DNA of 64,000 bases from Paludibacterium denitrificans (GTDB lineage: Bacteria; Pseudomonadota; Gammaproteobacteria; Burkholderiales; Chromobacteriaceae): positions 310,001 to 374,000 of the forward strand of contig NZ_WLYX01000001.1 in assembly GCF_009707705.1 (NCBI RefSeq), given 5' to 3'. The notes under the pieces are model-generated. The model did not search any database. It was not told the DNA's origin and worked only from the letters and a program-made list of their open reading frames with translations. The translations under genes were made by a program, and so were the position numbers. Of the stretch, positions 19,105 through 21,586 are shown piece by piece. The number at the start of each line of letters is the position of its first letter. The stretch's first letter is position 1.

Positions 19105-19421
19105 TTGGGGGAATGGGTCTTGGAATGTGAAGAGGATTCGCAAGAGTTGGAATTCAAGGGCAAGATTATAGCCTGAATCCGTCATGAAAATACACCAGCG
19201 CCCGGCGCATGGCCGGGTGACAGCGCCAGAGCATGGTTTCTCTCCGTGCTCACACGGGGCAGCACTCCTGTTGTCAGTAGGATTTTCTGTTTATCTACCA
19301 ACACCCAAGCTGCCTCATAACAGCTAATTGATGCCCGGCCACCCCGCATCGTTGCGCCACGCAATATCACACCTTCGAAGCATGAGACCAATTACCCGCA
19401 TGACACAGCACGCCAAGCGGC
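19105..19421. other. Intergenic region upstream of pcnB, no gene seen
   Basis: The region contains a short inverted repeat (GCCCGGCGCATGGCCGGG at about 19200-19217) and presumably the pcnB promoter on the minus strand. Short reading frames here lack ribosome sites and family signals. Confidence 0.4.
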
Positions 19422-19450
19422 TTGACAGTGCAAAACCAGAGGCATAGTCT
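19422..19450 (+). promoter_or_regulatory. Putative sigma-70 promoter for the pseudoknot RNA
   Basis: TTGACA, a 17-nt spacer and TAGTCT (4 of 6 matches to TATAAT). Transcription would begin near 19457, exactly where the first pseudoknot helix starts, which supports both calls. Confidence 0.55.
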
Positions 19451-19457
19451 GACCTCA

Positions 19458-19509
19458 TGCGCCGATTTGAAGACAGCTTGCTGGGCGCACTACAAATACC
19501 AGCTAAAGC
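19458..19509 (+). ncRNA. H-type pseudoknot element 1 (SAM-II-like riboswitch candidate)
   Basis: Helix P1 pairs TGCGC (58-62 of the 19400s) with GCGCA (19485-19489). Helix P2 pairs GCTGG (19480-19484) with CCAGC (19499-19503). The first loop begins CGATTTG and the 3' end reads GCTAAAGCG. P2's 5' strand directly abuts P1's 3' strand, the classic H-type layout of SAM-II, which also has GAUUU in loop 1 and AGCUAAA at its 3' end. A terminator follows within 10 nt. The ligand is inferred from resemblance only. Confidence 0.6.
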
Positions 19510-19522
19510 GCGCGACGGTAAA

Positions 19523-19552
19523 ACCCGCCAACGCTTTGCGAGCGGGTTTTTT
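19523..19552 (+). terminator. Intrinsic terminator after pseudoknot 1
   Basis: ACCCGC pairs with GCGGGT around a small internal GC stem and is followed by TTTTTTGTTTTG. Its position a few bases after the pseudoknot fits transcriptional control by that element, or the end of a small RNA of about 95 nt. Confidence 0.75.
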
Positions 19553-19639
19553 GTTTTGTGCTGTGGCTCATACCGGCACTTCCGCACCGTCTTCATGATC
19601 GACACACGCTATACCGTCCGGCCATGCCGGATGTATCAG

Positions 19640-19694
19640 GGCGCCGAGTTAATCGACAACTTGCAGGGCGCCTCCAATAAATCCTGCTAAAGCG
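19640..19694 (+). ncRNA. H-type pseudoknot element 2 (tandem copy)
   Basis: Helix P1 pairs GGCGC (19640-19644) with GCGCC (19668-19672). Helix P2 pairs GCAGG (19663-19667) with CCTGC (19683-19687). Compared with copy 1, both helices carry compensatory changes (U-A to G-C in P1, U-A to A-U in P2), while CTTGC before P2, an A-rich AATAAAT loop and CTAAAGCG at the end are kept. It lies about 55 nt before an orphan gene. A GGGCACGC/GCGCCC hairpin just before the AAGG ribosome site could transmit the signal. Confidence 0.6.
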
Positions 19695-19748
19695 TCGCCC
19701 CTGGCGTCAGTAGCCGGGCACGCACTAGCGCCCGCTAAGGACATGACC

Positions 19749-20052
19749 ATGTACGACTGCCGGGACGACTCCTATACCGATTTTTCATTTGCCGAATTTG
19801 ATACCGTGGGAAGCTCCAGACCTCTTTGCGGCAGCCTGACTGCCTCGCCGCTCCAGCCCGATGACACCCTGCCCTTGTCCGATCTGGCCTTGTTTGCCAG
19901 CCAGCAAGGCTACCTGACGCAACGCCATGGCCACGATCTGATTATTTGTGACATCAATCTGGCCGATGCACTGATGGTCAACAACCGTTTTGGCTAAGCA
20001 GCTGATCATCAGCTGTGACCTGCGGCGCGACCCGCCTGCCCAGTTCGACTAA
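19749..20052 (+). CDS. Unrecognised small protein downstream of the tandem pseudoknots
   Basis: About 101 residues after repair of a break at 19995 (GGCTGGCAG read as GGCTAAGCAG); the other frame then continues WQLIISCDLRRDPPAQFD to a stop. The start at 19749 is preferred to 19743 because AAGG at 19737-19740 is then 8 nt away. It is acidic with no membrane segment or signal peptide. I do not recognise the family, so the regulatory elements upstream cannot be explained by its function. Confidence 0.55.
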
Positions 20053-20177: not shown

Positions 20178-21586
20178 ATGTTCTTTGAACTGAACCACGC
20201 CTCCCGTCGCGACATTCTGGCCGAAGTGCGGCGTATTACCGCCCTCGCGTTGCCCATGATGGTGGCACAGATCGCCCAAGTGGCCACCAGCTTTGTCGAT
20301 ACCGTCATGGCTTAGCCGGGTCAGCACCGACGATCTGGCAGCGGTATCGCTGGGCGCCAGCGTGTTTCTGACGGTGTACGTGACTTTGCTCGGCATCGTC
20401 ACGGCCCTCAATCCGATTCTCTCGCACCAGTTAGGCTCGGGGGAGCGCGCTGCTATTGGCGAAACCGCGCGCCGGGCATCTGGTTTGGGCTGTTCCTAGG
20501 GCTGGCCGGTGCCGCCCTCATGCTGCTGTGCCAGCCCTTGCTACGTGCATGGCTGGACTTGCCCGCCGAGGTGGAGGACAAGGCGATGCTGTTTATCAGC
20601 GGCACCGCTGTCGGCATGCTTAAGCGGCCATGATGCACCGCGCTCTGCACGCCTACGCCTCCAGCCTTAATCGTCCCAAGCCGATCATGGTGGTCAGCCT
20701 GATTGCACTGGCGCTCAACATTCCACTTAATTACCTGCTGATCCATGGCCTGTTTGGCTTGCCCCGGCTGGGTGGTGCTAGCTGTGGCTGGGCGACCGGG
20801 GTGGTGTTCTGGTTCAATTGTCTGGCGCTGTTTGCTTACCTGTGCTGGCACCGGCATTTTCGTGACTATCGGCTAACCGAACGTTTCAGCCCGCCGCACT
20901 GGCAGCGCTATCTCACGTTCTTGCAACTGGGCTTGCCGATCGGCTTGTCGTTTTTTGTCGAAGTCAGCCTGTTCACTTTTATTGCCTTGCTGGTGGCGCA
21001 GCTCGGTACGGTCGTGGTTGCCAGCCATCAGGCTGTGCTGAATTTTTCCAGTATTCTTTACATGTTGCCGCAGAGTCTTTCCACCGCCTTGAGCATCCGC
21101 GTCGGGCAGAATCTGGGGGCGGGCAATTATCGCGGGGCACGCTTTGTCTCTGGCGTTGGCTTGCTCACCGGGGTGTGTCTGGCGGCAGTCGTCATGCTGG
21201 TGGTGCTGTTCGGGCGCCATACCATCATGCAGATGTATAGCCCCGACCCTCGTGTTGCCACGCTGGGAGCCACCCTATTGCTGTTTGCTGCCATTTACCA
21301 ACTGACCGATGCGGCCCAGAGCATTGCCTCCGGCGCCTTGCGGGGCTACAAGCTGACTACGGTGCCCATGCTGATCCACATCACTTCGTTCTGGGGGTTG
21401 GGCCTTGGGCTAGGCATCACGCTGGGGCTGACCAACTGGCTGACGCATCAAGCCATGGGTATTGTCGGCTTCTGGTTTGCACTGGATATCAGCCTGACCG
21501 TCGCCGCACTGCTGCTGGTCAGCTATCTGGCGTTTGAAAGCCGACGCCGCCTGCACCGTCAACTCGATCAAGGACAAGCCACGTGA
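20178..21586 (+). CDS. MATE-family multidrug exporter (NorM-like), frame broken
   Basis: About 468 residues and twelve predicted membrane segments. The N-terminal ITALALPMMVAQIAQVATSFVDTVMAG and central NIPLNYLLI...GGASCGWATG blocks are MATE signatures. It should export cationic drugs in exchange for Na+ or H+. Breaks are at 20310 (GCTGGCC read as GCTTAGCC), near 20472 (CCWGG read as CCGG) and 20622 (GCTGGC read as GCTTAAGC). The stop overlaps the murB GTG start as GTGA. Confidence 0.9.

Follow-up and report, generated by a model that had tools for sequence, protein, structure and literature searches.

Two SAM-II-like pseudoknot elements were found in tandem in the 64-kb window (the whole stretch of DNA analysed), ahead of an operon that encodes a small conserved protein, MYDC, and a MATE transporter. 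They are most probably SAM-II-class riboswitches that together give a two-level, SAM-dependent shut-off of this operon, a reading to which we assign a probability of roughly 0.83.

Structure of the tandem leader and its operon

Both pseudoknots reported in a preliminary description of 19422-19748 were present at that position, and all sequence pieces named there were found. The features of the leader and the genes behind it were as follows.

19422..19450, plus strand: promoter, with -35 TTGACA at 19422-19427, a spacer of 17 nt and -10 TAGTCT at 19445-19450
19451..19516, plus strand: copy 1, type A SAM-II-like aptamer (model R2, 63.7 bits; pocket nucleotides kept)
19458-19463 and 19484-19489, plus strand: P1 of copy 1, TGCGCC with GGCGCA
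19480-19483 and 19500-19503, plus strand: P2b of copy 1, GCTG with CAGC
19464-19468, 19478-19481 and 19502-19507, plus strand: pocket of copy 1, GAUUU, UUGC and GCUAAA (loop GATTT)
19520..19552, plus strand: intrinsic terminator of copy 1, hairpin ACCCGC...GCGGGT followed by a T run
19633..19700, plus strand: copy 2, type B SAM-II-like aptamer (model R2, 48.3 bits; covariation)
19640-19645 and 19667-19672, plus strand: P1 of copy 2, GGCGCC with GGCGCC
19663-19666 and 19684-19687, plus strand: P2b of copy 2, GCAG with CTGC
19654-19657 and 19694-19697, plus strand: P2a of copy 2, CGAC with GTCG
19646-19650, 19661-19664 and 19686-19691, plus strand: pocket of copy 2, GAGUU, UUGC and GCUAAA (loop GAGTT)
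19692..19741, plus strand: putative expression platform of copy 2, a hairpin lying between P2a and AAGGA, the ribosome site at 19737-19741
19749..19997, plus strand: small conserved gene MYDC, start ATG at 19749 or 19743, stop TAA at 19995-19997
20178..21586, plus strand: MATE (NorM-like) transporter gene, located in three frames by tblastn with relatives' proteins of up to 78% identity

Covariance model R2 was built from 30 leaders of other families of the order (Burkholderiales), almost all of them upstream of methionine genes, and its training set held no sequence of the window or of the home family (Chromobacteriaceae), which avoids circularity. On the 64-kb window it returned exactly the two sites, with E-values, rough owing to a short calibration, of 8.7e-18 for copy 1 and 4.8e-13 for copy 2; the next best match reached 12.1 bits. 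The B copies of relatives were recovered by the same model. P1, originally given five pairs, is better described with six in the SAM-II register, because the first G of GGCGC is the partner of the C preceding GATTT. The tail of both copies was GCTAAAGCG, from 19502 in copy 1 and from 19686 in copy 2.

The terminator claimed behind copy 1 proved real, its hairpin (19520-19550) folding at -15.4 kcal/mol with a z-score of -2.43. The proposed TTGACA-17-TAGTCT promoter was borne out in part: its -35 was conserved in relatives, while a consensus promoter scan gave no site above threshold before copy 1, and CATAGT with a 15-nt spacer is an alternative -10. In all 32 tandem leaders of MATE operons, TTGACA or a one-base variant stood upstream of copy A at a similar distance. 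The best-promoter score was 9.9 before A, against 6.5 in shuffles, and 6.3 before B, against 6.2; no promoter signal was seen before copy B in these leaders. With a promoter before A only, one transcript most likely carries both copies.

The two copies also differed in what followed them. A terminator lay within 110 nt after A in 38 of 39 tandems and after B in none of 38 (shuffles, 1-3 per set). Type A elements before metZ and metX were likewise followed by terminators (43/45 and 5/5, respectively), and a terminator came after type B in 18 of 54 metK leaders, so some type B metK leaders may terminate too. Copy 2 does lead into a ribosome site, as had been noted, but AAGGA lies about 37 nt past it with a hairpin in between. 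Folding of the region from B to the start codon showed that in many metK leaders a hairpin straight after P2a covers the GGAG ribosome site; in tandem MATE leaders the hairpin was usual, yet the ribosome site was not always covered, and for this reason we infer translation control by copy 2 rather than report it. Alternative pairing between aptamer and platform was evaluated by swapping partners: it was weakly locus-specific in metK leaders (6 of 300 swaps were as low), and no locus-specific pairing was seen in tandems. No switching model by antiterminator or anti-sequester pairing is put forward on these results.

The gene behind copy 2, described earlier as an orphan, is indeed without a known family, no Pfam or NCBIfam family being matched, but it does not stand alone and leads an operon with a MATE transporter. 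MYDC begins M(Y/F)DC and occurs in several families; M1, D3, C4, A74 and L75 were invariant in an alignment of 25 sequences. Its predicted structure was beta-alpha-beta-beta-alpha-beta, a ferredoxin-like fold (mean pLDDT 81), and the top matches of a fold search were de novo designs or else ribosomal and EF-G domains, with no functional lead. In relatives, MATE starts within about 150 nt of MYDC, sometimes overlapping it, and the MATE protein of one relative matched PF01554 (MatE) at 160.6 bits (E 3.3e-47, cut-off 24.9); relatives' MATE also matched NCBIfam TIGR00797. The MYDC frame of the window encodes 84 aa, ending at an early stop at 19995, compared with 95-111 aa in relatives, and the MATE gene of the window is broken by several frame changes while relatives' genes are intact. 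The assembly has a completeness of 80.6% and a contamination of 6.7%, so the broken frames may stem as readily from sequencing errors as from decay.

Two subtypes, the ligand pocket and covariation

When all matches were aligned, two types were distinguished, with copy 1 belonging to type A and copy 2 to type B. The copies share the pseudoknot architecture that had been noted for them, and are two distinct subtypes instead of a simple duplication. The consensus of type A was xGCGCC-GAUUUGA..CAGCUUGC-G-GGCGCx..AAAUNCNGCUAAAGCG, and that of type B was xCGCC-GAGUUAA..GACAACUUGC-R-GGGCGx..AAAUNCYGCUAAAGCGUC.

The ligand pocket of SAM-II is formed by U10-U12, U20-C23 and G42-A47 (PMC3764141); the crystal numbering was mapped onto the elements by us from the published base triples. 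All 13 pocket nucleotides were present in copy 1. Across 105 type A sequences, 12 of the 13 positions were invariant, and position 10 was U in 102. Copy 2 kept 12 of the 13, with U10 replaced by G. The same position was the sole change in type B as a whole, where G was found in 88 of 106 sequences and U10 was kept in 16. UUGC and a GCUAA-like motif served as anchors in parsing the matches, so that conservation there is partly by construction; this bias is small, because 262 of 263 matches were parsed.

The claimed covariation of P1 and P2 was confirmed, compensatory changes being found in both types. In the type A alignment (n=30), 95.1% of cells were paired and the covariation score was 0.109, against 0.053 in shuffles; the corresponding values for type B (n=39) were 92.5%, 0.173 and 0.069. 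For either type, none of 500 shuffles scored as high, and the score lay above all controls in which the partner strand was slid. Sliding the partner by 1-3 columns lowered pairing to 33-53%. Changes on both sides were seen at 4 and 5 pairs, respectively. The variable P2b pair of type B was A-U, G-C or G-U in 99 of 99 sequences, and A-U, U-A, G-C and C-G all occurred among the outer P1 pairs; GCGUC/GACGC was the P1 of Burkholderia-like and some gammaproteobacterial leaders. The P2a of type B was almost constant (C-G 39/39, A-U 39/39, G-C or A-U 37/39).

In Rfam searches, no family matched anywhere in the window at its gathering score. RF00521 (SAM_alpha) matched copy 1 over its full length, but the 23.0 bits reached (E 0.0035 for 4227 families against 361 nt) fell below its gathering score of 36, and it did not match copy 2; the SAM_V model, SAM-V having also been suggested for checking, gave no match on 19400-19760 at E-values up to 10. 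Of 150 genomes of the order, 26 had RF00521 matches above the gathering score, at type A leaders, and sibling type A elements reached 52.5, 45.2, 44.3, 43.9 and 39.4 bits. None of the type B elements tested gave any RF00521 match. Searched as a whole with RF00521, the genome of the window gave only a 24.5-bit site (L022), apparently within coding sequence, which was dismissed as chance, because 10 of 14 control genomes also match at that threshold. By Rfam score, type A thus counts as SAM-II in 26 of the 150 order genomes, and copy 1 is SAM-II by pocket and fold, not by score, while type B fails the Rfam SAM-II test and one pocket position.

The SAM-II-like assignment was upheld. The preliminary description had held that it would fall if there were neither an Infernal match nor covarying homologs; instead, the analysis yielded the RF00521 match, passed above threshold by siblings, as well as a kept pocket, covarying P1 and P2 in homologs, and methionine or SAM genes as neighbours.

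Distribution and downstream genes

A DNA search recovered the leader stretch in 50 of 61 related genomes, with both copies in most of the family. Model R1, built from the home family, matched 61/61 genomes of the family, 194/250 of the order and 78/185 drawn from the class; beyond the class, two further members of the phylum scored above 50 bits. SAM-II had been noted as mainly alphaproteobacterial, RF00521 is titled alpha-proteobacterial, and SAM_alpha was seen in Rhizobiales and Rhodobacterales only (Leyn 2014, PMC4239095); the present element, with R1 matches in 194 of 250 Burkholderiales genomes, is not so limited. A search of relatives for conserved tandem copies had also been suggested, and among the matches listed at least 53 of 60 genomes of the family had two copies, the copy starts lying 129-207 nt apart in 53. 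The second copy of two genomes (G011 and G033) was detected by other searches, and one genus of four genomes in the home family had the B copy only. Tandem leaders before MATE were not confined to the home family, occurring as well in at least three further families of the order (f5, f22 and f32).

Seven reference proteins served as tblastn queries to assign the downstream genes, identical leaders being counted once; the counts refer to loci fetched rather than to all genomes, and some loci are near-duplicates. On this basis, single A leaders preceded metZ (46), metX (5), metY-like genes (5), metH (2), metN (2), metK (2) and unclassified genes (6). Single B leaders (n=67) preceded metK in 54 cases and MATE in 3, with 7 unclassified and 3 at a contig end. 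The link with metK is no selection effect, because in named genomes the type B loci were picked out with a DNA pattern blind to genes. A-B tandems (n=42 distinct) preceded MATE in 32 cases, with 9 unclassified and 1 at a contig end.

Further leaders were observed beside these. In the genome of the window, metN is preceded by a third copy, a very compact type A element of 58 nt (L002:1492-1549) that has a shortened L3 loop and a terminator. Judged by position and size, the compact element of the metN leader occurs in most of the home family too. Type B or A-B leaders were seen before an operon with a MoxR-type AAA ATPase (L034, L048, L114, L117, L137, L168 and L232), and a metK-like paralog lay downstream in L117. 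A-B tandems stood before small unclassified genes in L032, L056, L107, L115, L134, L163 and L234, several of them Rhodocyclales; a metK-like gene was near the L115 tandem, and a recurring protein family with the motif INWA..PG..WPESY was found near L032, L072 and L163. Translations inspected by eye at L236, L250, L249 and L215 pointed to metE-like, homocysteine methyltransferase-like and threonine dehydratase-like genes as targets. Two gammaproteobacterial metK leaders (L259 and L260) carried a single type A element with the P1 GCGUC/GACGC, and L260 passed the Rfam SAM_alpha threshold.

Proposed SAM-dependent control and its alternatives

In SAM-II riboswitches, ligand binding represses methionine genes. 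By this model, the leader 19451-19748 would hold two SAM-II-class aptamers in series on one transcript, with SAM as the probable ligand of both and repression as the probable direction. Copy 1 would act by transcription attenuation: when SAM is plentiful, the P1/P2 pseudoknot would form and the terminator behind it would stop RNA polymerase. Copy 2 would act on the transcripts that escape, where, with SAM bound, P2a/P2b would form and the following hairpin would close the ribosome site. Both copies together would give tight repression, the operon being made only when SAM is low. The metZ SAM-II element of Sinorhizobium meliloti is predicted to terminate upon SAM binding (PMC9373788). Against this reading stand the scores of the window copies below the RF00521 gathering score, the failure of SAM_alpha to see type B in the elements tested, and the pairing of aptamer with platform, which was weakly locus-specific in metK leaders and not so in tandems. 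In addition, the MATE gene is no obvious target for a SAM OFF switch.

The ligand of type B could differ, because of the G at pocket position 10. That A senses SAM and B a related compound (SAH, methionine, decarboxylated SAM or another), so that the leader works as a two-input gate, is improbable. U10 is fully conserved in SAM-II (PMC3764141), yet G takes its place in most type B sequences, to which the Rfam model is blind; on the other hand, U11, U21, G22, U44, A45 and A47, SAM contacts in SAM-II, are all kept in type B, the 16 sequences with U10 belong to the same type, and its place before metK in 54 of 67 single leaders agrees with the usual metK logic of SAM feedback. A wider version, unlikely though less so, takes the tandem as an A/B gate with differing affinities or ligands, B being a new SAM-II subclass, which controls a MATE transporter and MYDC that move a compound of the methionine/SAM cycle; if true, methionine/SAM-cycle transport would be a MATE function so far undescribed. 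An ON switch, in which SAM on copy 2 frees the ribosome site and MATE exports surplus SAM-derived compounds, is quite improbable. MATE proteins are mostly exporters, and the 3' strand of P2b in the home family, UCCUGC, could, judged from sequence alone, pair with the GGA of the ribosome site when SAM is absent. UCCU is not conserved in type B, however, where UUCUGC and UACCGC are common; copy 1 directly precedes a terminator, which is the OFF arrangement of SAM-II, and metK leaders of the same type would be activated by their own product.

We also consider it very doubtful that the locus makes a small RNA instead of a leader. RF02424 (Bp2_287, a Burkholderia sRNA) matched the minus strand of copy 1 (window 19428-19552) at 28.3 bits, far below its gathering score of 70, and a copy 1 transcript ending at the terminator, about 95 nt long, would resemble an sRNA; yet the one match of RF02424 over threshold (G152, L210:1500-1720) lies antisense to a metZ leader whose sense strand carries the same aptamer. 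The small-RNA reading of RF02424 was accordingly rejected as the wrong strand of a metZ leader, and RF02424 may be mis-stranded, because it is the reverse of the metZ-leader aptamer. The least probable alternative, with hardly any weight, takes the element as a binding site, on DNA or RNA, of a protein such as a methionine regulator, the pseudoknot being incidental. The primary sequence is strongly conserved, as in GATTT, CTTGC and the common tail, but compensatory changes in P1 and P2 of both types, the constant position of the element behind the promoter and ahead of the terminator, and a pocket that matches SAM-II exactly argue against a protein site.

The SAM-dependent shut-off by two SAM-II-class aptamers may be compared with known systems. 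The elements resemble SAM-II (RF00521; Corbino 2005, PMC1273637) in the H-type pseudoknot of P1 and P2a/P2b in the same register, the pocket GAUUU/UUGC/GCUAAA, a promoter just before P1, a terminator behind and methionine genes downstream, and differ from it in the sub-gathering scores of the window copies, the G10 of type B and MYDC-MATE as the target in the window. SAM-V lacks the final 3' pairing element (P2a) found in most SAM-II (PMC2704228); type B keeps P2a and is therefore not SAM-V. The metXZ element, found once per genome ahead of metX or metZ in beta-proteobacteria, was described as a pseudoknot that has six conserved regions and is accompanied by a terminator; its ligand was left unassigned and it was not equated with SAM-II (Leyn 2014, PMC4239095). 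Type A agrees with that description in its pseudoknot, its metZ and metX leaders (46 and 5) and their terminators, and is probably the metXZ element, the two being equated here by position and description. 'Candidatus Pelagibacter ubique' likewise combines two SAM pseudoknot aptamers, SAM-II and SAM-V, in one leader, with action proposed at transcription and translation (PMC2704228, PMC11508383). The second aptamer is SAM-V there and a SAM-II-like element that keeps P2a here, and the present tandem belongs to another lineage, has another target operon and is conserved over several families. With the SAM/SAH and SAM-III (SMK) leaders of metK, type B shares a predicted feedback on metK by a small SAM-binding RNA; its consensus is different, and neither family was matched in Rfam at the type B loci searched.

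In the open literature searched, we found neither the SAM-II identity of metXZ, type B with metK, nor the A-B tandem and a SAM-controlled MATE operon. Priority is not assured, and an early survey counts SAM-II among beta-proteobacteria in passing (PMC2258182; PMC2704228). These results link the metXZ element to SAM-II and place SAM-II-class leaders also before metK, metY, metH and metN. Regulators of metY, metK and metNIQ in beta-proteobacteria had been sought and not found (Leyn 2014, PMC4239095), and leaders are now found at metY, metK and metN. In the A-B tandem, two sister aptamers paired by nature divide the work cleanly, a terminator following A and not B, and B adjoining the ribosome site. 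This pair, conserved over several families, makes a two-level 'digital' riboswitch logic directly testable. The target of the tandem suggests a role not found in the literature searched, namely that the MATE transporter and MYDC are parts of SAM homeostasis.
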